NCBI RefSeq assembly: GCF_014648655.1
Contig: NZ_BMRN01000003.1
Span: 390,335-454,334, forward strand
DNA from: Streptomyces atratus
GTDB lineage: Bacteria; Actinomycetota; Actinomycetes; Streptomycetales; Streptomycetaceae
Direction: 5' to 3'
Length of the DNA stretch: 64,000 bases
In this document: positions 4,485-27,783 of the stretch, piece after piece
Numbering within the stretch: position 1 is the first letter of the stretch
Layout of the letters: each line of letters opens with the position of its first letter
Notes under the pieces: model-generated
Seen by the model: the letters and a program-made list of their open reading frames with translations, nothing else
Told to the model about the DNA's origin: nothing
Database searches by the model: none
Made by a program: the position numbers and the translations under genes

Positions 4485-5861
4485 ATGCGCGTGACGATGA
4501 TTCTTCCGGCCCTGACCGAGGCGACCAGCCCGTTGTTCCGGCCCATCAAGTACTCGCTCTTCCCGCCGCTCGGCCTGGCGACCCTCGCCGGCTACCTGGA
4601 CCCGGACGACGAGGTGACGCTCCTCGACGAGCATGTCGAGCGGGTCGACATCGAGACGCTCGACAGCCCCGATCTGCTGGTCGTCCAGCCGTACATCACC
4701 TCCGCCCGGCGCAGCTACGAGATAGCCGATCACTTCCGCGCCCGGGGTGTCCATGTCGCCATGGGCGGCCTCCATGTGACCTCGCTCCCGGACGAGGCGT
4801 CGGCACACGCCGACACGATCTTCACCGGGCCGGGGGAGGACACCTGGCCGCTGTTCCTGAAGGAGTTCCGGGACGGTGTGCCGGGCCGCCGGTACGACTC
4901 CAAGCTGCGCACCCTGGCCGGACTGCCGCCCGTACGGCGGGACCTGATCAAGCGGCATCTGTATCTGGTGCCCAACTCGATCGTCGTCTCGCGCGGCTGC
5001 CCGCACCACTGCGACTTCTGTTACAAGGACGCGTTCTTCGAGGGCGGCAAGTCCTTCTACACCCAGGCCGTGGACGACGCCCTCGCCGAGATCGAGCGGC
5101 TGCCCGGCAGGCATCTGTACTTCCTCGACGATCACCTGCTCGGCAACCGGCGCTTCGCCGAGGCGCTCTTCGACGGGATGGCCGGAATGGGGCGGCTCTG
5201 GCAGGCGGCCGGCACCGTGAAGTCGGTCCTCCAGCCGGATCTGCTGGAGCGGGCCGTGGACGCGGGGCTGCGCAGCCTGTTCGTCGGCTTCGAGACCGTC
5301 AACAGCGCGAACCTCGCCGAACGCCGCAAGGACCAGAACATCGGCAAGGACTACGCGGCCGCCGTGCGCCGGCTCCATGACACCGGTGTCATGGTCAACG
5401 CCAGCTTCGTCTTCGGGCTCGACCACGACGGCCCGGACGTCTTCGACCGTACGGTGGAGTGGGCCGTCGAGCAGGGCATCGAGACGGCCACCTTCCACAT
5501 CATGACGCCGTATCCGTCCACCGGTCTGTGGAAGCAGATGGAGGCCGAGGACCGGATCGTCCACCGGGACTGGGATCTCTACGACACCCGCCACGTCGTC
5601 CACCGCCCGAAGGGAATGACTCCCCGCCAGCTGGAGGACGGGTACTGGCGCGCGTACCGGGACTTCTACCGGTGGTCCAACATCTGGCGCGGCGCGGCCG
5701 CCCAGCCGGGCACGCACGAGCGGCTCAGGCATCTGGCGTACGCGGGCGGCTGGAAGAAGTTCGAACCCGCGTGGGACGCCCTGATCCGCTCCCGCAACGT
5801 GGTGCGGGCCATGCCGATGCTGGAACGGACCCTGGCGGCCTTCGGCGGCAGACAGGCGTGA
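4485..5861 (+). CDS. B12-binding-type radical SAM protein
   Basis: The 458-residue protein has an N-terminal B12-binding-like Rossmann region (about 1-135, including LFPPLGLATLAGYLDP and AMGGLHVT). It is followed by a radical SAM core with the CxxxCxxC cluster motif at C172, C176 and C179 (RGCPHHCDFCYKD) and the GFETVN strand typical of the Elp3-like fold. The DxHxxG cobalamin motif is absent, as in many members of this class. Substrate unknown; relatives include methylases and ring-forming or hopanoid/tetrapyrrole-modifying enzymes. The ATG is at 4485; the gene stands between the mdh terminator and a convergent neighbour that ends 21 bases away. No partner gene gives a pathway. Confidence 0.85.
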   Translation: MRVTMILPALTEATSPLFRPIKYSLFPPLGLATLAGYLDPDDEVTLLDEHVERVDIETLDSPDLLVVQPYITSARRSYEIADHFRARGVHVAMGGLHVTSLPDEASAHADTIFTGPGEDTWPLFLKEFRDGVPGRRYDSKLRTLAGLPPVRRDLIKRHLYLVPNSIVVSRGCPHHCDFCYKDAFFEGGKSFYTQAVDDALAEIERLPGRHLYFLDDHLLGNRRFAEALFDGMAGMGRLWQAAGTVKSVLQPDLLERAVDAGLRSLFVGFETVNSANLAERRKDQNIGKDYAAAVRRLHDTGVMVNASFVFGLDHDGPDVFDRTVEWAVEQGIETATFHIMTPYPSTGLWKQMEAEDRIVHRDWDLYDTRHVVHRPKGMTPRQLEDGYWRAYRDFYRWSNIWRGAAAQPGTHERLRHLAYAGGWKKFEPAWDALIRSRNVVRAMPMLERTLAAFGGRQA

Positions 5862-5882
5862 CCGTGCGCGGCCCCGGGGCGC

Positions 5883-6617
5883 CTACCCCTTCCGCAGCTC
5901 TTCCGCGATCTCGCGTACGGCTGCCATGGCCCGGCGCTGCAGTCCGGGACCGAAAGTGATCCGGTCGGCGCCCAGTTCCCCCAGTCGGCGCGGGGTCGGG
6001 CCGTCCGGCCGGGCAAGGGCGTTGAGCGGGGCCGGGACGGCGGCGGCCAGCCGGGGCAGGGCCTCGGGCGGGGCCATGATCGGGTAGACGCAGTCCGCGC
6101 CCGCCGCCACGTACAGCAGGGCGCGGCGGACCGTCTCCGTCTCCGGGTCGGTGCCCTCGGGGACGCCCCGGACGTAGGTGTCGACGCGGGCGTTGATGAA
6201 GAGCGCGTCGCCCGCGACCGCCCGCACCTGCGCGAGCCGGTCCGCCTGCCGCTGGGCGTCGACGAGGGTGCCGTCGGCCGAGTCCTCCAGATTGCAGCCG
6301 ACGGCCCCGGTGCCGAGGAGCCGCTCCACCAGCTCCTCCGGGTCCAGTCCGTACCCCGCCTCGATGTCCGCCGAGACGGGCACGGAGGCCGGGACGGCCC
6401 GCACGATCCTGGCCACGGCCGCGAACATCTCGTCGGCGGGCGTCGCCCCGTCCTCGTAACCGAGCGAGGCCGCGACCCCGGCGCTCGGTGTGGCGAGCGT
6501 CGGGAAGCCCGCCTCGGCGAAGACGCGCGCACTCCCGGCGTCCCACGGGCCGGGGACGACCAGTGGGTCGCCGGGGGTGCGGTCGTGATGCAGGGCGCGG
6601 AGGACGGATGCGGTCAC
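5883..6617 (-). CDS. Isocitrate lyase / PEP mutase superfamily protein
   Basis: The GTG at 6617, with AGGAG about 7 bases upstream, gives 244 residues, shorter than true isocitrate lyase and typical of the PEP mutase/oxaloacetate-hydrolase-like group. Visible: LVVPGPWDAGSAR, the metal-binding strand SADIEAGYG, NLEDS, INARVDTYVRG, a LYVAAGADCVYPIMA segment and TFGPGLQRRAM. It probably cleaves or forms a C-C or C-P bond next to a 2-oxo acid, with Mg2+; the exact substrate cannot be told. It is the second gene after the AhpD-like protein (gap 59), likely one operon divergent from the MocR regulator at 7240. Confidence 0.85.
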   Translation of the reverse strand: MTASVLRALHHDRTPGDPLVVPGPWDAGSARVFAEAGFPTLATPSAGVAASLGYEDGATPADEMFAAVARIVRAVPASVPVSADIEAGYGLDPEELVERLLGTGAVGCNLEDSADGTLVDAQRQADRLAQVRAVAGDALFINARVDTYVRGVPEGTDPETETVRRALLYVAAGADCVYPIMAPPEALPRLAAAVPAPLNALARPDGPTPRRLGELGADRITFGPGLQRRAMAAVREIAEELRKG

Positions 6618-6676
6618 GCGGGGCTCCTGTGGGTGTGTCGGGGGAGTGGCGGTGCGCGTCGGGGTTCCTGCGGGGG

Positions 6677-7192
6677 TCAGTGCTTGATGTCGCCCGGCGT
6701 GTAGTGACCGGGCACCATGCGAGTGGTCACGGCGAACCGGTTCCAGGCGTTGATCGTCGTGATCGCGGCGATGAGGTGGGCGAGCTCGGTCTCGTCGAAG
6801 TGCTTGGCGGCCTTCTCCCACACCTCGTCCGGAACGAAACCGTCGGTCAGTACGGTCACCGCCTCGGTCAGCTCGATGGCCGCGATCTCCTTGGGCGTGT
6901 AGAAGTGCTGCGACTCCTCCCACGCGCCGAGCTGGACGATCCGCTCGATGGACTCGCCCGCCGCCAGGGCGTCCTTGGTGTGCATGTCGAGGCAGAACGC
7001 GCAGTGATTGAGCTGCGAGGAGCGGATCTTCACCAGCTCCCCGATGACCGGGTCGAGGCCCTTGCGGGATGCCGCGTCCAGCCGGACCAGGGCCTTGTAG
7101 ACATCGGGGGCGAGTGCGGCCCACTGCTGCATACGGGGGGTGTGCTCGGGGTTGAGTTCGGAGGTCGGGTGGCTGTGCTCGTTCGTCGTCAT
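6677..7192 (-). CDS. Carboxymuconolactone decarboxylase / AhpD-like protein
   Basis: This 171-residue protein carries the AhpD-type redox motif HCAFCLDMHTKDA (CxxC plus His) in an all-helical CMD domain. Despite the family name, this branch (AhpD core/YciW-like) usually acts as an alkylhydroperoxidase-like or thiol-dependent peroxidase component rather than a decarboxylase. It starts 47 bases from the oppositely oriented MocR-type regulator, which is the usual arrangement of MocR proteins with their target, so PLP- or metabolite-responsive control is likely. Confidence 0.9.
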   Translation of the reverse strand: MTTNEHSHPTSELNPEHTPRMQQWAALAPDVYKALVRLDAASRKGLDPVIGELVKIRSSQLNHCAFCLDMHTKDALAAGESIERIVQLGAWEESQHFYTPKEIAAIELTEAVTVLTDGFVPDEVWEKAAKHFDETELAHLIAAITTINAWNRFAVTTRMVPGHYTPGDIKH

Positions 7193-18644: not shown

Positions 18645-19574
18645 ATGGACTGGCTGAAAAACCTCCCTGTCATCGGGCCGATCGTCTCCCGGCTGATGGC
18701 GACGCACGCCTGGCGCTCGTGCGAAACGCTGGAACGGGTCCACTGGGCCAGGCTCGCCGCCGCGATCACCTTCATCAGCTTCCTGGCGCTCTTCCCGCTG
18801 ATCGCGGTCGGTGCGGCGATCGGTGCCGCGCTGCTCTCCACCGAGCAGATCCACAAGATCGAGGACAAGATCGCCGAGCAGGTGCCGGGCATCTCCGACC
18901 AGCTCGGCATCAGCGATCTGGTCGCCCACGCGGGCACGGTCGGGCTGGTCGCCGGTGCGCTGCTGCTGTTCACCGGCATCGGCTGGATCGGCGCGATGCG
19001 GGGCTGTCTGCGCGCCGTGTGGGGCATGGACGACATGGACCTGGGCAATCCGGTCATCCGCAAACTCAAGGACGTCGGGCTGCTCTTCGGTCTGGGCGGG
19101 GCGGCGCTCGCGACTCTCGCCGTCTCCTCGGCCGGTTCCGTCGCCGTCGGCTGGACCGCCGGTCTGCTGGGTATCTCGGACCGGGGTGCGGGCGGTGTGG
19201 TGCTGCAGGTGGCCGCCTTGGTCGTGGCGGCCCTCGCCGACTTCCTGCTGCTGCTCTACCTGCTGACGCTGCTGCCCGGCGTCGAGCCCCCACGGCGCCG
19301 GCTCCTGGTTGCCGCGGCGATCGGCGCGGTCGGCTTCGAACTGCTCAAGCTGCTGCTCGGCAGCTATATGAAGGGCGTCGCGTCGAAGAGCATGTACGGC
19401 GCCTTCGGGGTGCCGGTCGCGCTGCTGCTGTGGATCAACTTCACGGCAAAGCTGCTGCTGTTCTGCGCCGCCTGGACGGCGACGCGGAACAGCGAGGACG
19501 CCGAGAGGGACTCCGCGCCCGTCAGCGACGAGGAAGGCGGCGCACCAGGTCCGGCAGCGGCCAGCGCCGGTTGA
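18645..19574 (+). CDS. YihY/BrkB family membrane protein
   Basis: 309 residues with about six hydrophobic segments, first AAITFISFLALFPLIAVGAAIGAAL. The family includes the YihY/virulence factor BrkB proteins, once called RNase BN in error; function is unsettled, with transport or envelope roles proposed. Conserved features seen: an amphipathic N-terminal helix, WGMDDMDLG, and the segment YGAFGVPVALLLWINF. The 3' end overlaps the convergent carboxypeptidase gene by 53 bases, so each stop lies within the other gene. Confidence 0.9.
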   Translation: MDWLKNLPVIGPIVSRLMATHAWRSCETLERVHWARLAAAITFISFLALFPLIAVGAAIGAALLSTEQIHKIEDKIAEQVPGISDQLGISDLVAHAGTVGLVAGALLLFTGIGWIGAMRGCLRAVWGMDDMDLGNPVIRKLKDVGLLFGLGGAALATLAVSSAGSVAVGWTAGLLGISDRGAGGVVLQVAALVVAALADFLLLLYLLTLLPGVEPPRRRLLVAAAIGAVGFELLKLLLGSYMKGVASKSMYGAFGVPVALLLWINFTAKLLLFCAAWTATRNSEDAERDSAPVSDEEGGAPGPAAASAG

Positions 19575-20787
19575 CCAGGAACACCCCGCCGGCCAGCAGC
19601 GCCAGGACGCCTCCGGCGATTCCCAGCGCGATCCCGACGCCCCCGCCCCCGCCGCCGTCGCCTTCGGCGGCAACGGCCTCGGTGTCGTGCGAGGGGCCGT
19701 TCCTTCCCTTGTCCTCCTCGCGCGCCGCCGCGGGGCCCTTCCCGGTGCCGGTCCCGGTACTGGCGGACCTCGGGGGCACCAGTTCGCCGACCGGGGTCAC
19801 CTTGCCGCTCGCGGCGAAGCCCCAGTCGAGGAGGCCGGCGGCTTCCTTGTAGACGGCGTGGGGCTCCTTGGACGACGGGTTCATGACGGTGACGAGCAGC
19901 ACCTTGCCGTTGCGTTCGGCGACACCGGTGAAGGTGTTGCCCGCGTGCGTGGTGTAGCCGTTCTTGACCCCCGCGATGCCCTTGTACGGGTCGACGCCGT
20001 CCGCACCGGTGAGCAGCCGGTTGGTGTTCTGGATCTTGAAGGTCTCGCGCTTCCCGTTCTTCTTCTTCGCGCCGGGGAAGTCCGCCTCGGCCGTCGAGCA
20101 GTACTCCCGGAAGTCCGCCTTCTGCAGCCCGCTGCGGGCGAACAGCGTCAGGTCGTACGCGCTGGAGACCTGATCGGGCGCGTCGTAGCCGTCGGGCGAC
20201 ACCACCTTCGTGTCGAGCGCCTGCAACTCCTCGGCATGTGCCTGCATGTCGGCGACGGTCTTGGGGATGCCGCCGTACATCGAGGACAGCACATGCACCG
20301 CGTCATTGCCCGAGCGCAGGAACACCCCGAGCCACAGGTCGTGGACCGTATAGCTGAGGTGTTCCTTGACGCCGACCAGGCTGCTGCCCTCGCCGAGATC
20401 GGCGAGGTCCTTCTCCTGCACCGTGTACGTCTGGGTCTTCGGCTGCAGGCCGGGCATCACGGTGTCCGCGAAGAGCATCTTCAGGGTGGAGGCGGGGGGC
20501 AGCCGCCAGTGCGGGTTGTGCGCCGCGAGGACCTCGCCGTTCTCCGCGTCCGCGACGATCCAGGACCTGCCCGTGAGGTCCTTGGGCAGTACCGGGGCGC
20601 CGACCCCCAGCTTGACCTGCGTGCCGGTCCGGCCCAGCAGCTCGCCACCGACCCGGGACATGCCGGCGGGTGGCTTCGGCCGGTTGGCGGAGGCGTCCTT
20701 GTCGACCGCCGATGCCGGACTGACGACAAATGTGGACAACAAGGCGGCAGAGGTGACCGTAAACGCGATCTTTTTCAGAGCAAGCAC
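19522..20787 (-). CDS. D-alanyl-D-alanine carboxypeptidase (low-molecular-weight PBP, DacC-like)
   Basis: 421 residues from a GTG at 20787. N-terminal signal peptide (KKIAFTVTSAALLSTFVVS, cleavage after ASA), then a serine carboxypeptidase S11 domain: active-site SxxK as S100-T-L-K103 (PPASTLKMLF), SGN in LRSGNDAVHVL, and KNG in GVKNGYTTHAGNT where most family members have KTG. The C-terminus has a Gly-rich linker and a membrane helix (GIALGIAGGVLALLAGGVFLV) with a basic tail. It trims the terminal D-Ala of peptidoglycan stem peptides at the outer face of the membrane. Divergent from the SCO4848-type gene at 20909. Confidence 0.92.
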   Translation of the reverse strand: MLALKKIAFTVTSAALLSTFVVSPASAVDKDASANRPKPPAGMSRVGGELLGRTGTQVKLGVGAPVLPKDLTGRSWIVADAENGEVLAAHNPHWRLPPASTLKMLFADTVMPGLQPKTQTYTVQEKDLADLGEGSSLVGVKEHLSYTVHDLWLGVFLRSGNDAVHVLSSMYGGIPKTVADMQAHAEELQALDTKVVSPDGYDAPDQVSSAYDLTLFARSGLQKADFREYCSTAEADFPGAKKKNGKRETFKIQNTNRLLTGADGVDPYKGIAGVKNGYTTHAGNTFTGVAERNGKVLLVTVMNPSSKEPHAVYKEAAGLLDWGFAASGKVTPVGELVPPRSASTGTGTGKGPAAAREEDKGRNGPSHDTEAVAAEGDGGGGGGVGIALGIAGGVLALLAGGVFLVNRRWPLPDLVRRLPRR

Positions 20788-20908
20788 GGTCGGAAACGTA
20801 CAGGGCGAGGATATGAATGCGGGTGCGGATTGCTTGACCCGCCGTGCGTTCCGCCGGGACAGCCCACCCCGGGCAGCTTCGCCGGAGCGCGGCGGAGATA
20901 CTGGGGCC

Positions 20909-21154
20909 ATGAAGCTCAGCCGCCCCGTCTCCTGGTTCCTGCTCGCCTTCGGGGTGTGGAGCTGGTTCATCTGGATCACTTTCGTCAAGAACCTGTGGAA
21001 GGACGGCAGCGGACTCGCCTTCGACGACGCGGGTGACCCGACTGCGTACTTCTGGGTGCATCTGCTGCTCGCCATCACGTCCTTTCTCCTGGGGACGGCC
21101 GTTGGTGTGATCGGGTTCCGTGGGGTCAGGGCCCTGCGCCGCGAAAGTGCATAA
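20909..21154 (+). CDS. SCO4848-family small membrane protein
   Basis: 81 residues, two membrane helices (SWFLLAFGVWSWFIWITF and WVHLLLAITSFLLGTAVGVI) with a charged loop between. This is a small conserved Streptomyces family of unknown function, next to the D-Ala-D-Ala carboxypeptidase gene as in other species. The ATG at 20909 is 29 bases ahead of the phosphoesterase gene, so the two are likely cotranscribed. Confidence 0.85.
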   Translation: MKLSRPVSWFLLAFGVWSWFIWITFVKNLWKDGSGLAFDDAGDPTAYFWVHLLLAITSFLLGTAVGVIGFRGVRALRRESA

Positions 21155-21183
21155 CAAGCCGTACGACGGGCGGGGGAGCGCAA

Positions 21184-22455
21184 GTGGCAGTGGCCGGTCT
21201 CGCGGTGACGGCAGTCGTGGTGCTCGCGCTGCTCGTCGGCGTGCACCGCTATCTGTGGCGCCGCTTCGTCGGTGACACGACGGCCGAGGGCAGCGCCCTG
21301 CGCCGGACCGGCACGGTGGCCGCCTTCCTCCTGCCGCTGCTGACCATCGGCGCCCTGGTCTCCGGCCGTACAGGTGCGCCCTTCTGGCTCCAGCGGGTGC
21401 TGGCCTGGCCGGGATACCTGTGGCTGGCCGCGCTGCTGTATCTGACGCTGGCTCTGCTGGCGGGCGAGGCGGCACGGCCGATTCTGCGACGGGTGCTCGC
21501 GGGCCGTGCGAACGGGGCGAGCCGGTCGGACCGTCCGTCGGTGACGAAAGTGCTCACGCCCGAGGCCGCCGACGCCCCCGCAGCGGACATCCTCGTCGCC
21601 GATGCCCCCGTAGCGGACACCCTCGCCCTCCCCACGCGCCGCCTGTTCGTCGCGCGGGCCGTCGGGGGCGCCGCCGCCGTCGCCGGGCTCGGCACGGTCG
21701 GCTACGGCACGTACGGCGTGCTGCGCGGGCCGCGGGTCAAGCGGATCACCGTCCCGCTCGCCAAGCTGCCCCGCTCCGCGCACGGCTTCCGGATCGCCGT
21801 CGTCAGCGACATCCACCTCGGCCCGGTCCTCGGCCGCGCCCACACCCAGCGGATCGTCGACACGATCAACCGGACCCAGCCGGATCTGGTCGCCGTCGTC
21901 GGTGATCTCGTCGACGGAACCGTCGCCGACCTCGGTCCGGCCGCGGAGCCGCTGGCGCAGCTGACTGCCCGCCGGGGCAGTTTCTTCGTCACCGGTAATC
22001 ACGAGTACTACTCCGGCGCCGACCAATGGGTTGATCACGTAAGGGAATTGGGGCTTCACCCCTTGGAGAATGCCCGGACCGAGATCGACGGATTCGATCT
22101 CGCGGGCGTCAACGACATTGCCGGGGAGAGCGAGGGGCAGGGCCCCGATTTCGATCGCGCGCTCGGCGACCGGGACCGTACCCGCGCCGCAGTCCTCCTC
22201 GCTCACCAGCCCGTCGTCATCCACGATGCCGTCGCCCACGGCGTGGACCTCCAGCTCTCCGGCCACACCCACGGGGGCCAGCTCTGGCCGGGCAATTTCA
22301 TCGCAGAGTTGGCCAATCCCACGGTCGCCGGGCTCGACCGCTACGGCGACACCCAGCTGTACGTCTCGCGTGGAGCGGGCGCCTGGGGGCCGCCCGTACG
22401 GGTCGGTGCACCCTCCGACATCACCGTCGTGGAGCTCGCCTCCCGACAGGCCTGA
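21184..22455 (+). CDS. Membrane-anchored metallophosphoesterase
   Basis: 423 residues from a GTG at 21184. Three or four hydrophobic segments in residues 1-110 and another around 160-185 precede a calcineurin-like phosphoesterase domain with the dinuclear-metal motifs SDIHLGP, GDLVDG, TGNHEYY and HTHGGQLWP. Such proteins hydrolyse phosphodiesters or UDP-diacylglucosamine-like lipids, probably at the membrane surface; the real substrate is unknown. It is the second gene of a likely pair with the SCO4848-type protein. Confidence 0.92.
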   Translation: MAVAGLAVTAVVVLALLVGVHRYLWRRFVGDTTAEGSALRRTGTVAAFLLPLLTIGALVSGRTGAPFWLQRVLAWPGYLWLAALLYLTLALLAGEAARPILRRVLAGRANGASRSDRPSVTKVLTPEAADAPAADILVADAPVADTLALPTRRLFVARAVGGAAAVAGLGTVGYGTYGVLRGPRVKRITVPLAKLPRSAHGFRIAVVSDIHLGPVLGRAHTQRIVDTINRTQPDLVAVVGDLVDGTVADLGPAAEPLAQLTARRGSFFVTGNHEYYSGADQWVDHVRELGLHPLENARTEIDGFDLAGVNDIAGESEGQGPDFDRALGDRDRTRAAVLLAHQPVVIHDAVAHGVDLQLSGHTHGGQLWPGNFIAELANPTVAGLDRYGDTQLYVSRGAGAWGPPVRVGAPSDITVVELASRQA

Positions 22456-22643
22456 CACTCCGTCGATGGCCTGTTACCGATCTTGTCGATCGACCCAAGG
22501 TTTCAAGTGCCGAACAAAAGGCTATGAGTCCCACTTTTGCTCTTCCAGATGTGAAAATCGTGTGATTGGCTGAGCGCAAACATGCGGTGATGTGCGTGTC
22601 TGAACGCAACGCCGAGGTGGGGCTGGTAAGGGAGAGCACGGCA

Positions 22644-24200
22644 ATGCGGTCGATCCGGGCACGGATTCTCGCGGTTCTCGCGGTTTTGGTCATCGCAGGC
22701 GTCGGCGCCTGGCAGCTGCTTCCCTCGGACGAGGTGAAGAAGGACCCGATCGCGGTCGGTACGACGGACGTAGTCACCTCGCTCGACCCGGCAGGTGCGT
22801 ACGACGCCGGTTCCTGGGCGATGTACAGCAACATCTATCAGTCCCTCATGACGTTCAAGTCCGGGGCGATCGTCCCCGAACCCGACGCCGCCGAGAGCTG
22901 TGGGTTCATCGGCCAGAAGCTCCAGACGTACCAGTGCAAGCTGCGCGACGACCTGTTCTTCTCCAACGGTCGCAAGATGACCGCCGCCGATGTCAAGTAC
23001 TCCATCGAGCGCATGATCAGGATCAAGACGGATGTCGGTCCGTCGGTGCTGTTCCCGAGCCTCAAGAACGTGGTGTCCGAGGGCCGCACCATCACCTTCA
23101 ACCTCTCCTCGCGCGATGCGACCTTCCCGCAGAAGCTCGCCACGGGAGCCGGATCGATCGTCGACCGCGAGTCGTACCCGCCGAACAAGCTCCGGGCCGG
23201 AAGCACGGTCGACGGCTCGGGCCCCTACATCCTGAAGTCGTACCGGCCGAGCGCCACCGCCGAGCTGGTCCCCAACCCCCGGTACAAGGGTGCGCTGAGC
23301 AAGACCGGTGTCCCGGTCACCGTGCACTACTACAAGGGGTCGGAAGCACTCCTGGCGGCCTGGAATTCCGGGCAGGTCGATGTGACGCACCGCCAGCTGC
23401 CGCCTGCCACGCTCGCCGAGCTGAACCCCGGCGACCCCGATCTGCGCGTCACCGAGGCGGGCAGCGCCGAAATCCGCAATCTCGTCTTCAACGTCCGTGA
23501 CAGTTCCCCGTTCGCCGACAAGAAGGTCCGGCAGGCCATCGCTTCGATGCTCGACCGCGGGCCGCTGGTGACCGATATCTACAAGGGCACGGTCGAACCG
23601 CTCTACTCGCTGATCCCGCAGGGCTACATCGGGCACAGCACACCGTTCTTCGACGCCTATCCGTCGCCCGATCCCGCGCGCGCGAAGAAGCTCCTGGAGC
23701 AGGCCGGCGTGCAGACGCCGCTGCACTTCACCTTCGGCTACCGCGGCGGCGACGAGGCGTACGCGAACGAGGCCGCGGAGCTGCGCAGGCAGCTGGAGGC
23801 GGGCGGCCTGTTCAAGGTCACGGTCAAGGCCGTCGAGTGGACGAAGTTCCAGAAGGAGTACGCGGCCGGCAAGTACGACGCGTACACCGTCGGCTGGTTC
23901 CCCGACTATCCGGACTCCGACACTTTCAGCCAGCCGCTGGTGGGCCACAACAACAGCCTCCACAACGGCTACTCCAGCAAGAAGATGGACGCCCTGATCG
24001 GCGCCACGCTCCAGTACAGCGACCGCAGCCGTACCTCGGCGGACTTCAAGGAGCTCCAGGCGCTGGTCGGTGAGGATGTGCCGCTCGTGCCGCTGTGGCA
24101 GAAGAAGGACTATGTCGTCAGCACGACCGATGTCTCCGGTTCGCAGTACCTTTCGGACGGCACCGGCCTCTGGCGGCTGTGGGAACTGAAGCGGATCTGA
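22644..24200 (+). CDS. ABC transporter substrate-binding protein (SBP_bac_5, peptide/nickel type)
   Basis: 518 residues from the ATG at 22644 (AAGGGAGAG upstream). An N-terminal hydrophobic segment RILAVLAVLVIAGVGAW is followed by a family 5 solute-binding domain (TTDVVTSLDPAGAYD; DDLFFSNGRKMTAADVKYSI; YPDSDTFSQPL). The usual lipobox cysteine is missing, so the protein is either secreted or held by an uncleaved helix. No permease or ATPase genes adjoin on either side, making it an orphan binding protein. Oligopeptides are the commonest ligands of the family, but this is not shown here. Ends at a strong bidirectional hairpin. Confidence 0.9.
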   Translation: MRSIRARILAVLAVLVIAGVGAWQLLPSDEVKKDPIAVGTTDVVTSLDPAGAYDAGSWAMYSNIYQSLMTFKSGAIVPEPDAAESCGFIGQKLQTYQCKLRDDLFFSNGRKMTAADVKYSIERMIRIKTDVGPSVLFPSLKNVVSEGRTITFNLSSRDATFPQKLATGAGSIVDRESYPPNKLRAGSTVDGSGPYILKSYRPSATAELVPNPRYKGALSKTGVPVTVHYYKGSEALLAAWNSGQVDVTHRQLPPATLAELNPGDPDLRVTEAGSAEIRNLVFNVRDSSPFADKKVRQAIASMLDRGPLVTDIYKGTVEPLYSLIPQGYIGHSTPFFDAYPSPDPARAKKLLEQAGVQTPLHFTFGYRGGDEAYANEAAELRRQLEAGGLFKVTVKAVEWTKFQKEYAAGKYDAYTVGWFPDYPDSDTFSQPLVGHNNSLHNGYSSKKMDALIGATLQYSDRSRTSADFKELQALVGEDVPLVPLWQKKDYVVSTTDVSGSQYLSDGTGLWRLWELKRI

Positions 24201-24290: not shown

Positions 24291-25001
24291 CTAGGCCCGA
24301 CGCTTCGCGGCGCCGGGCAGGAACTCCTCCAGCACCTCGTGAATCTGCCGCACCAGCGGTCGCAGCACCCGGAAGCGGGAGAGCGCGATGGCGCGGGCAC
24401 CGATCGGGGCGGAGCGCTCGACCAGGCGGCGGCTGCGTTCGGTGTGCTCCGTCCGGTCGTACACCCAGTAGAGCACCAGGCCCATCTGCATCAGCCACAT
24501 CAACTGCGGTAGCAGCTCGGCCAGTTCGGGATCGGTCTTGGCGTCCGAACCGGCCAGGCACCGCCGGTGGATGGAGATCGCCGCCTCGCGGGCCGCGATC
24601 GAATCCGCCGAGAACGGACTGAGCGGGCTCTCCGGGTCGGCGGCGTTCTTGAAGAACTGGGCGGCGAAGCGGTGGTACGGCTCCGCCACGTCCAGCCACG
24701 TGAGCAGGACCCCGCGCATCCGCACCGCGAGGTCCTTGTCGCCGTCCAGGACCGGCTGGACCGCCGCTTCGTGCTCGGCGGCGAGCCGGTCGTAGAAGCC
24801 CTGGACGAGGTGTTCCTTGTTCGTGAAGTAGTAGTAGGCGTTCCCGACGGAGACGCCGGCCTCCTGGGCGATGGCCCGCATCGTCGTCTTGTCGTAGCCA
24901 CGTTCCTGGAAGAGCCGGAGCGCGGTTTCGAGGATGAGTGTGCGGGTCTGCTCGCTCTTGGGAGCCTTGACTTCCTTCACGTCCTTCGCTTCCTTCACCA
25001 C
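24291..25001 (-). CDS. TetR family transcriptional regulator
   Basis: 236 residues if the GTG at 25001 is used; GTGs at 24998 and 24980 are alternatives, the last with AAGGAAG 8 bases upstream. N-terminal TetR HTH: RTLILETALRLFQERGYDKT, then MRAIAQEAGVSVGNAYYYFTNKEHLVQGFYD. The C-terminal ligand domain is unassigned. It is the third gene of a compact minus-strand operon (membrane protein, DCC protein, TetR), whose promoter carries two TTGAAC-NN-GTTCAA palindromes, so autoregulation is likely. Confidence 0.9.
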   Translation of the reverse strand: MVKEAKDVKEVKAPKSEQTRTLILETALRLFQERGYDKTTMRAIAQEAGVSVGNAYYYFTNKEHLVQGFYDRLAAEHEAAVQPVLDGDKDLAVRMRGVLLTWLDVAEPYHRFAAQFFKNAADPESPLSPFSADSIAAREAAISIHRRCLAGSDAKTDPELAELLPQLMWLMQMGLVLYWVYDRTEHTERSRRLVERSAPIGARAIALSRFRVLRPLVRQIHEVLEEFLPGAAKRRA

Positions 25002-25024: not shown

Positions 25025-25453
25025 TCAGTCCCCGGATCCGGGGACCGTACAGGCACTGTCCCCGGACCCGCACGGTGTCGCGGTCAGCGACCGGTACTTC
25101 GCGGCGGCGAGCACGGTCGCCCGGGCGAACGGGCGGCCTGCCGGGGTGGCCAGCCAGTGGGACCTGGGCCGGTGTTCGGCCAGCGCCCAGAGGCAGACGA
25201 TCCATGCGTCGGTCCCGCGGTAGATCTGCCCCCGGTCGCCGATCACGGTGATCTCGTCGAGCGTCGCGGCGTGGTCGAGCCCCGGGAAGCGGCGTCGTGC
25301 CTCTTCGGAGGCTGCCGGGACGAGGTCGAGCGGGACGAGCCGGCGCTGCTTCATCAGCCACTGGCGCAGATGGACGCAGAGCGAGCACTGTGCGTCGTAC
25401 AGCACCGTGAGGCGTTCGACGGACAGCCGCTGCCCGCCCGTTCTGACCGTCAT
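25025..25453 (-). CDS. DCC family thiol-disulfide oxidoreductase-like protein (DUF393)
   Basis: 142 residues from the ATG at 25453. The family signature YDAQCSLC (usually YDGxCxxC) lies at about residues 19-26, in a thioredoxin-like fold predicted to have dithiol redox activity. The stop-start gap to the upstream membrane protein is 7 bases, so the two are translationally close. Substrate and partner unknown. Confidence 0.9.
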   Translation of the reverse strand: MTVRTGGQRLSVERLTVLYDAQCSLCVHLRQWLMKQRRLVPLDLVPAASEEARRRFPGLDHAATLDEITVIGDRGQIYRGTDAWIVCLWALAEHRPRSHWLATPAGRPFARATVLAAAKYRSLTATPCGSGDSACTVPGSGD

Positions 25454-25460
25454 GGCGCGC

Positions 25461-25892
25461 TCAGGCCCTGGTGGTGGGTGCGGCCCACGGACCGTTTCCC
25501 GGAGCCGTCCAGCCCTGCGGCGGTACGGGCGGGGTCTGCTCACGCTCCATCAAGCCCCTGCGGCGGATCTTGTTGAGCACATAGACGTTGCCGAGGTGCA
25601 GCACGCCGAGGACGAGCAGGACGACGCCGAGCTTCACCGACAGCGCCTCGAAGAGGCCGCGGGCGTCGGCAACCCCGTCGTCGTTCCTCAGATAGAGGGT
25701 GACGAAGCCCAGGTTGACCAGGTAGAAGCCGACCACCAGCAGGTGGTTGACGGCATCGGCGAGTTTCTCGTTCCCGTGCAGCACATCGGCGAGGAACACC
25801 CTGCCGTTGCGGCTGAGCGTGCGCGCCACCCAGACGGTGAGCGCCACGCTGATCAGCAGGTAGATGACGTACGCGACAACAGTGAGGTCCAT
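25461..25892 (-). CDS. Small integral membrane protein, first gene of a DCC/TetR operon
   Basis: 143 residues from the ATG at 25892, with GGGAGG about 8 bases upstream; a further in-frame ATG at 25919 would overlap the palindrome. Three hydrophobic segments: LTVVAYVIYLLISVALTVWVA, HLLVVGFYLVNLGFVTLYL, and a VKLGVVLLVLGVLHLGNVYV segment. The Pro-rich tail is probably cytoplasmic. No characterised family recognised; homologous small membrane proteins are common in Streptomyces next to DCC proteins. Confidence 0.85.
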   Translation of the reverse strand: MDLTVVAYVIYLLISVALTVWVARTLSRNGRVFLADVLHGNEKLADAVNHLLVVGFYLVNLGFVTLYLRNDDGVADARGLFEALSVKLGVVLLVLGVLHLGNVYVLNKIRRRGLMEREQTPPVPPQGWTAPGNGPWAAPTTRA

Positions 25893-25905: not shown

Positions 25906-25919
25906 TTGAACGCGTTCAA
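25906..25919. promoter_or_regulatory. Palindromic operator candidate, copy 1
   Basis: TTGAACGCGTTCAA is a perfect 14-base palindrome 14 bases upstream of the ATG at 25892. Copy 2 lies with its centre 44 bases away. TetR-type proteins bind such sites, and a TetR gene closes this operon. Confidence 0.65.
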
Positions 25920-25949
25920 AAGCTGGTGTCATGGACTGTAGACCTGTCT

Positions 25950-25963
25950 TTGAACATGTTCAA
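25950..25963. promoter_or_regulatory. Palindromic operator candidate, copy 2
   Basis: TTGAACATGTTCAA, a perfect 14-base palindrome with the same half-site as copy 1, overlaps the stop codon of the MFS gene (25960-25962). Confidence 0.65.
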
Positions 25964-27186
25964 GCAGGTACCTCGGCGGCTCGCTCCCCCTGCTTGCCGG
26001 GCGCCCCGAAGCGCCGTACGCCCGGCACCGCCGCCGTCGCCAGACAGGCGGCGCCGACCGTCACCGCAGCGACGGCCAGGGGGACTTCGGCGCCCCAGGC
26101 CGAGGCGGCGAGCGGGGCCAGGGCATATCCGAGCGGCATCGCGCCGAGGGAGAGCAGCCAGTCGTACGAGGTCACGCGGGCCAGGGCGTGCGCGGGCACG
26201 GCGGACTGGACCGAGGTCTCCCAGACCGGGTTGAGGAAGCCGAGCCCGGCCTGTGCGATGCCGTACGCGGCGATGGTCACGACGACGGGTGCGTGGACGG
26301 CGAGAAGGCCGAGCGGGAGGGCGTACGTGGCGAGGCCCAGGTTGGCGATCAGGACCGGGCGGCGGGGGTGGGCCCGGCCGGCCAGCAGGGAGCCGAGGAG
26401 CAGGCCGACCGCGCCGGTCTGGAGGAGGGCGACCCAGACGCCCTTGCCGCCCAGTTCCCGGACGAAGAGGGCCGGACCCACGGTCATCAGGACGGCCGCC
26501 GCGCAGTTCCAGGCGGCGTGGGCGATCAGGCTCGTCCAGTACCAGTCGCGGCCCCTGACCTCGCTCCAGCCCTCCTTGAGGTCGGTGAGCAGGGAACGCC
26601 GGGGGATGGGTACATGCCGGACCTTCATGGCGGACAGCAGCGCCGCGCTCACCGCGAAGCTCGCGCCGTCCAGCACGAAGGCCCAGCCCGGGCCCGCGGT
26701 GAGGATCAGGGCTCCGGCGAGGGCCGGGCCGCCGAGCCGGGTCACGCTGTTGACCACCGCCATCAGTGAGTTGGCGCGCAGCAGCCCCGACTCCGCCACG
26801 GTGCCGCGGATCAGTGGTGAAACGGTCGGCATCGCGAACGCCCCGGCGGCGCCGCCGATCGCCTCGGCGAGGGCGATCTGCCAGAGCGCGGGGGAGCCGC
26901 CGAGCAGTTCCGCGCCGACGAAGAGCTGGGTCACGCACCGTACGAGATCGGTGGTGAGCGCGACGGTGCGGGCGTTGAAGCGGTCGCCCACGACGCCACC
27001 CAGTGGCAGCAGGAGCAGCTTGGGGATCATTGCGCATCCCAGGACCAGGGCGAGCGCTCCGGTCGATCCTGTGGCCAGATAGACGGCCAGGGAGAGGGCG
27101 GTGGGGATGGCGGAGTCGCCGAGGAGGGAGAGGGTGCGTCCGATGAAGAGCAGGCGGAAGGCGCGCGTGCGCAAGGGGTGCGGCAT
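25960..27186 (-). CDS. MFS transporter
   Basis: 408 residues with about 11-12 hydrophobic segments. MFS signature around GGVVGDRFNARTVALTTDLVR (loop 2-3 type GxxxDRxxxR). Members of this branch resemble macrolide/multidrug efflux proteins of the Mef type. It diverges from a MarR regulator 87 bases away, a pairing typical of regulated efflux pumps. No substrate can be named. It ends inside the second palindrome of the following operon. Confidence 0.9.
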   Translation of the reverse strand: MPHPLRTRAFRLLFIGRTLSLLGDSAIPTALSLAVYLATGSTGALALVLGCAMIPKLLLLPLGGVVGDRFNARTVALTTDLVRCVTQLFVGAELLGGSPALWQIALAEAIGGAAGAFAMPTVSPLIRGTVAESGLLRANSLMAVVNSVTRLGGPALAGALILTAGPGWAFVLDGASFAVSAALLSAMKVRHVPIPRRSLLTDLKEGWSEVRGRDWYWTSLIAHAAWNCAAAVLMTVGPALFVRELGGKGVWVALLQTGAVGLLLGSLLAGRAHPRRPVLIANLGLATYALPLGLLAVHAPVVVTIAAYGIAQAGLGFLNPVWETSVQSAVPAHALARVTSYDWLLSLGAMPLGYALAPLAASAWGAEVPLAVAAVTVGAACLATAAVPGVRRFGAPGKQGERAAEVPA

Positions 27187-27214
27187 GCGCGCAATCTATT
27201 TTGGTTCCGAACTA

Positions 27215-27226
27215 TTCGTCAACGAA
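27215..27226. promoter_or_regulatory. MarR operator candidate
   Basis: TTCGT-CA-ACGAA, perfect 5-base arms, lies in the unusually AT-rich 87-base gap between the MFS and MarR starts. Two related direct segments (TTGGTTCCGAAC and TTGTACCGAAGG) flank it. Position and symmetry fit a MarR site controlling both genes; binding is inferred. Confidence 0.5.
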
Positions 27227-27273
27227 ATATCTTGTACCGAAGGATAGTTGGGGGCCGGGCGTACGCTTTCCCC

Positions 27274-27783
27274 ATGGAGCGACGCGACTGGACCGACGGA
27301 CATGTGGAGCGCTGGAAGCCGGTCCTTCCCCACCTCGATCCCGATGTCGAGGGCGCGGTGACCCGTATGAAGAAACTCTCCGTCCATCTGCGCCGGGTAC
27401 GCGAACAGTCCCTGGTCGACTTCGACCTCGACCGCCAGGAGTTCGACACGCTCCACAAGCTGGCCGGACGCGGCGGAAAGGCGGCCCCCTCCGAGCTCGC
27501 CGCCGACCTCGACCTCGCGCCCGCCTCCGTCACCGGCCGTCTGGACGCGCTCGAACGGCGCGGCTTCGTCCGCCGTACGCCCTCCACCACCGACCGTCGA
27601 CGGGTCGATGTGGAACTCACCGGCGAGGGCCGCTCGACCTGGCTGGGCGCGATGGACGTCCTCGGCCACGAGGAGTACCGGCTGCTCGGCGTCCTCGACA
27701 AGGACGAACGCACACTGCTCAACGACATGCTGCGGCGCATCATGGTGGTCGCCGAGGACCGGGGCGGCGCCGAGTGGGACTGA
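27274..27783 (+). CDS. MarR family transcriptional regulator
   Basis: 169 residues from the ATG at 27274; no ribosome site is evident, so translation may be leaderless or weak. Winged helix: FDTLHKLAGRGGKAAPSELA, then DLDLAPASVTGRLDALERRGFV and the wing RRTPSTTDRRRVDVELT with the conserved DxRxxxxxLT pattern. It is likely the repressor of the divergent MFS gene, responding to a small phenolic or drug ligand; the ligand is unknown. Confidence 0.92.
   Translation: MERRDWTDGHVERWKPVLPHLDPDVEGAVTRMKKLSVHLRRVREQSLVDFDLDRQEFDTLHKLAGRGGKAAPSELAADLDLAPASVTGRLDALERRGFVRRTPSTTDRRRVDVELTGEGRSTWLGAMDVLGHEEYRLLGVLDKDERTLLNDMLRRIMVVAEDRGGAEWD

Follow-up and report, generated by a model that had tools for sequence, protein, structure and literature searches.

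We find two perfect 14-base palindromes of the form TTGAAC-NN-GTTCAA in a 64,000-nucleotide stretch of Streptomyces atratus DNA (the window; the whole stretch that we analysed), where they frame the promoter of an operon ending in a TetR-family gene. The palindrome pair very probably serves as the switch by which the candidate repressor controls itself and marks a small, hitherto undescribed group of cell-envelope genes under common control. Judging from sequence evidence, we assign a probability of about 0.88 to the reading that both palindromes are operators of the TetR whose gene closes the operon; this TetR would act by repression and negative autoregulation and would have further targets.

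Twin palindromes frame the promoter of a TetR operon

The locus has the following features (window coordinates).

25906-25919, no strand assigned: proximal candidate operator TTGAACGCGTTCAA, covering roughly +10 to +23 of the predicted transcript and abutting the ribosome-binding site; the placement matches an alignment of 91 promoters
25950-25963, no strand assigned: distal candidate operator TTGAACATGTTCAA, which supplies the -35 box with one half-site and overlaps the MFS stop codon
25958-25963, minus strand: predicted -35 box TTGAAC, inside the distal palindrome; 17 bp from TANNNT in most aligned promoters
25935-25940, minus strand: predicted -10 box TACAGT, read from the sequence; T, A and the final T are conserved at 0.89-0.91 in the promoter alignment
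25461-25892, minus strand: first gene, MP, a small membrane protein of 143 aa; ATG at 25890-25892; kept behind twin sites across genera
25025-25453, minus strand: second gene, a DCC/DUF393-family thiol-disulfide oxidoreductase-like protein (Pfam PF04134, E 8e-12); likely start ATG at 25453
24291-25001, minus strand: third gene, a TetR-family regulator (TetR_N and TetR_C_23) of the SCO4850 / PDB 3c07 type (PF00440, E 2.8e-19, above cut-off; PF17931, E 1.5e-26)
25960-27186, minus strand: MFS transporter (Pfam MFS_1) upstream of the sites; outside the conserved unit, adjoining the sites in some relatives only

The window, with a G+C content of 70%, holds two exact copies of the motif against 0.0003 expected. 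Scanning the whole 9.83-Mb genome, we found seven exact copies against 0.04 expected under a first-order model with the composition of the window, while a reversed control pattern gave no copy in the same genome. Twin pairs occur twice, against about 6e-9 expected per genome. The sequence-only reading, which had described two 14-base palindromes with a common half-site and centres 44 bp apart, was thus correct in its coordinates, and the pair lies far beyond chance.

Both palindromes belong to one predicted promoter. Reading along the minus strand, the distal TTGAAC (25963-25958) is followed by 17 bp and then by TACAGT (25940-25935). The same distance from the distal TTGAAC to TANNNT was seen in 80 of the 91 unique MP/DCC/TetR promoters and in 17 of 21 promoters of a second operon type that begins with a YndJ gene. 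The proximal palindrome lies beyond the -10 box and passes directly into the purine-rich ribosome-binding site. The MFS gene has its stop codon inside the distal palindrome (TCA on the plus strand at 25960-25962, TGA on the minus strand). This overlap had been pointed out earlier and it stands, but the distal copy is not merely an MFS-side element, since it holds the -35 box and both sites lie in one promoter.

The spacing of about four helical turns, also proposed earlier, is true of the 44 bp in the window but reflects no conserved helical phase, as the centres are 39-47 bp apart at TetR operons. The gap between the sites is 25-33 bp at TetR operons and 26-32 bp at YndJ operons, with nearly every value in between. 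We therefore rejected a helically phased, cooperative operator pair, which is unlikely given gaps that differ by over half a turn of the helix. A single promoter blocked at two independently bound sites would fit better.

The MP, DCC and TetR genes form a tight operon on the minus strand. A Pfam search with MP gave no match, and the start codon of tetR is uncertain (GTG near 24998 or 25001). Upstream, a MarR regulator gene (plus strand, 27178-27783) diverges from the MFS gene, the two making a typical regulator-exporter pair (25960-27783) that is independent of the TetR operon. Genes for a D-Ala-D-Ala carboxypeptidase, a metallophosphoesterase-like membrane protein and an extracellular solute-binding protein are found near the operon, at about 19522-24200. 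A relative (L164) has the phiBT1 attB gene region (SCO4848 type) some 3 kb away. We asked whether the phiBT1 attB locus SCO4848-SCO4849 is the TetR operon itself and rejected this. The primer published for SCO4848 falls some 3 kb downstream of the twin sites, beyond TetR, so that the two are neighbouring but separate units; a sigma-E hit at sco4849 is therefore irrelevant to the twin-site promoter.

The sites co-occur with the SCO4850-type TetR gene

The nearest solved structure to the TetR of the operon is PDB 3c07, a putative TetR-family regulator that is homologous over the whole protein (E 7.7e-100). The two are as close as Streptomyces orthologues are among themselves. Gene order and published locus names make 3c07 very probably the S. 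coelicolor orthologue SCO4850. Performing literature searches, we found 3c07 as a structure only, SCO4850 only in regulator lists, no operator, regulon or ligand for either, and no relevant paper on TTGAAC-NN-GTTCAA.

We compared 199 Streptomyces genomes, 147 of which encode a close homologue of this TetR. The site was present in 144 of these 147 genomes (mean of 3.83 copies) and in 7 of the 52 genomes lacking the gene (mean of 0.21 copies), giving a Fisher p of 1.9e-33 on counts that are not phylogenetically independent. In the three TetR-containing genomes that lack the site, the TetR gene is not beside MP or DCC. The twin pattern occurred in 120 of the 199 genomes, and 119 of these have the TetR; in the exception (G017), the contig ends inside the DCC gene, before the expected TetR position. 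Since Streptomyces share ancestry, we repeated the test in 269 other genomes of the class, where the site was found in 29 of 40 genomes with TetR and in 25 of 229 without it (p 1.7e-15). Outside the genus, a site precedes 23 TetR homologues by no more than 1.4 kb, and several of these sites are only 18-30 bp away, with TetR first in its operon. The sequence-only reading had asked whether the motif is common at random genome positions. With seven copies in this genome and almost none in genomes without the SCO4850-type TetR, it is not, and the proposal survives this check.

Scanning a GTDB-based collection with the twin pattern alone returned at least 118 stretches, and among the matches listed, 115 of 118 lie at MP(-DCC)-TetR or YndJ-DUF1990-LMF operons. 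The matches listed come from Streptomyces, Kitasatospora, Embleya, Actinacidiphila, Micromonospora, Catellatospora, Virgisporangium, Glycomyces, Nocardioides, Kribbella, Hamadaea and a few MAGs. DCC is dispensable, as five loci (L166, L182, L204, L219 and L245) have MP and TetR without a DCC match, and the upstream MFS gene is absent at most twin loci while the sites are kept. TetR is thus the constant regulatory partner of the sites.

A few matches are of separate interest. On a contig labelled as a Planctomycetota MAG, twin sites (L140 5523-5582) stand with MP, DCC and a TetR that is 46% identical, which reflects either horizontal transfer or a misbinned actinobacterial contig. On a contig labelled as an Acidobacteriaceae MAG, a twin site (L191 4750-4806) is located between ispE and a gene for a membrane protein with an SRPBCC-like domain, and no SCO4850-type TetR is near it. 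A third stretch (L216 93-892), unlike the other loci, has TTGAACAAGTTCAA several times in 0.8 kb and may be a repeat array that has nothing to do with the TetR system.

Predicted repression and its alternatives

From the computed sites, promoter position, conservation and TetR link, we infer a mode of binding, repression, ligand release and envelope function. One TetR dimer would occupy each 14-bp palindrome. The distal dimer would cover the -35 box and the proximal dimer the transcript start up to the ribosome-binding site, so that RNA polymerase would be kept off by a steric block. A ligand, probably hydrophobic, would release the repressor. As tetR lies in its own operon, the outcome would be negative autoregulation. 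The YndJ-DUF1990-LMF operon would be governed by the same TetR through its equivalent twin site, and so would several single-site genes for envelope proteins.

A palindromic candidate operator overlaps promoter elements in TetR's own transcription unit and is also found directly upstream of tetR in other genera. The suggestion of the sequence-only reading that the palindromes are candidates for TetR autoregulation gains strong support from the presence of TetR, and from its position just downstream, across families. The suggestion has to be widened, as the motif appears to serve not autoregulation alone but to mark a small regulon as well.

The TetR might instead bind the sites to activate, or to both activate and repress. 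Some TetR-family proteins are activators, and the direction of control cannot be read from sequence. However, operators placed over a -35 box and an early transcribed region normally hinder RNA polymerase, and going by this geometry, we regard activation as unlikely.

A different TetR-family regulator with a similar motif, such as a KstR-like protein, could also own the sites. KstR of mycobacteria is a self-repressing TetR-family protein with the palindrome TnnAACnnGTTnnA and a regulon spread over the genome (PMC1995591), and TTGAACNNGTTCAA satisfies this published core. The genome encodes one KstR-like protein (C8:63370-63909), which scores 199 bits, under the 280-bit family cut-off. However, the sites accompany the SCO4850-type TetR gene in different families and hardly occur where that gene is missing; the only KstR-type match near the KstR-like gene differs (TGAAACTTGTTCTA); and the recognised targets are not steroid catabolism genes. 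We therefore consider a KstR-like binder very improbable. Two related candidates were rejected. The operon's TetR is not itself KstR, as it scores 36 bits against the 280-bit cut-off and shares only the HTH with KstR (E ~7e-6, residues 12-67). Neither do the sites represent a KstR cholesterol regulon, as they are not at sterol or lipid catabolism genes; the recognised targets are YndJ, DUF1990, LMF, TIGR01777, PBP, small membrane proteins and lipoproteins.

The divergent MarR would be another binder, controlling the MFS gene or the gap. Regulator-transporter pairs of MarR and MFS are common, and the distal site reaches into the MFS stop codon. The sites are, however, at the 3′ end of the MFS gene, about 1.2 kb from the MarR-MFS intergenic region, and they persist at most twin loci, where MFS is absent; there is hardly any chance that MarR is their regulator. 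Equally far-fetched are RNA or DNA hairpins (an MFS terminator or a leader structure) in place of protein operators: the repeats are perfect and one copy of the second twin locus sits within a longer perfect palindrome, but only 6 bp of each arm are conserved and no T run is present, the sites are conserved whatever gene lies upstream, the distal copy serves as the -35 box and is therefore not transcribed from its own promoter, and the co-occurrence with TetR would be left unexplained.

A second twin locus and a putative envelope regulon

The seven genomic copies comprise the window pair, a second pair and three single sites. The second pair (C23:60374-60431; L016 4375-4432), on another contig, has the identical 44-bp spacing and precedes an operon encoding a YndJ-like membrane protein, a DUF1990 protein and a homologue of lipase maturation factor (LMF). 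Its distal copy is the one embedded in a longer perfect palindrome (GGCCTCTCTTGAACGCGTTCAAGAGAGGCC), and the locus borders on a siderophore-type ABC transporter operon. The three single sites are near a lipoprotein-like gene, a penicillin-binding protein (PBP) gene and a small membrane protein gene. The second of these (L018 5326-5339) stands 30 bp before a transpeptidase-type PBP gene (5370-7004) whose product has an NTF2-like N-terminal domain, and the same arrangement was also found in L092 and L098, from other species.

We examined 30 single-site loci, 27 from relatives and three from this genome. A TIGR01777-family oxidoreductase recurred at six and a transpeptidase PBP with an NTF2-like N-terminus at three; further targets were two lipoprotein-like genes and several small membrane proteins. 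Outside Streptomyces, the site is 20-45 bp upstream of TIGR01777 at five loci (L305, L307, L309, L310 and L311), and TIGR01777 directly follows TetR at two (L313 and L315). At another locus (L314), TetR, YndJ and DUF1990 stand together behind one site; this independent linkage supports the YndJ-DUF1990-LMF twin locus as a true target. The only site with one mismatch, CTGAACGGGTTCAA (C3:215318; L008 1501-1514), looked like one more target, but it coincides with the opening codons of a gene for an MscL-like mechanosensitive channel and may be either a chance match or a real target.

The recurrent targets include membrane proteins, lipoproteins and PBP, most of them without known function, and they suggest an envelope regulon. 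We tentatively raise a broader possibility, at somewhat worse than even odds: the SCO4850-type TetR may act as master regulator over an envelope regulon, so far undescribed, that extends across the actinobacterial class and answers a membrane-derived lipid signal, with MP, DCC, YndJ, DUF1990, LMF, TIGR01777 and, in some species, PBP as its members.

Comparison with known systems

In the TetR/tetO system, two near-identical palindromic operators in one control region bind one dimer each and serve autoregulation. The present system likewise has two near-identical palindromes, each expected to bind a dimer, and predicted autoregulation. In contrast, tetO serves divergent genes at a fixed spacing, whereas here a single promoter is framed with variable centre distances, and the unit has no conserved drug pump. 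The actinobacterial LexA/SOS box is a palindrome with GAAC/GTTC half-sites and four bases between them; the present motif has two bases between GAAC and GTTC, and the targets examined included none that we recognised as a DNA-repair gene. With the KstR site, the motif has the AACnnGTT core and spacing in common. It differs in its fixed outer bases, TTG...CAA, in its apparent envelope targets and in its sites often being promoter-framing pairs.

As far as we found, this would be a TetR repressor that controls itself, a familiar type of system, yet one that is undescribed and widely conserved. The predicted operator gives a site and a target list at once for a repressor that has a close relative of solved structure. 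It also links several widespread families of unknown function (MP, DCC/DUF393, YndJ, DUF1990, bacterial LMF and TIGR01777) to one regulator, so that a shared role is testable by a single deletion. For Streptomyces work, the promoter is compact and strongly conserved and should be switchable by its own repressor.

Recognition helix and site

Nearly all TetRs with TTGAAC sites have the recognition-helix sequence GNAYYYF. Two distant TetR homologues with a GTT(N/H)YHF helix have a different site 22 bp upstream instead.

L303 1219-1232: CTGAACATGTTCAG
L302 1549-1562: CTGAACATGTTCAG

Helix and site may thus co-vary, which two cases can only suggest. The rule is not strict, as the helices SHAYYFF (L312) and GNAYHYF (L313) go with ordinary TTGAAC sites. 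A family of 11 TetR homologues (f17; ~51-55% identical) counts against a simple site-helix picture: the exact site is absent from six of their genomes, and at the six loci read, the helix is the same GNAYYYF, yet no site is near the TetR gene. At one of the two loci with the altered site (L303), the gene of the TetR homologue comes after a fadB-like gene, which hints at lipid metabolism.
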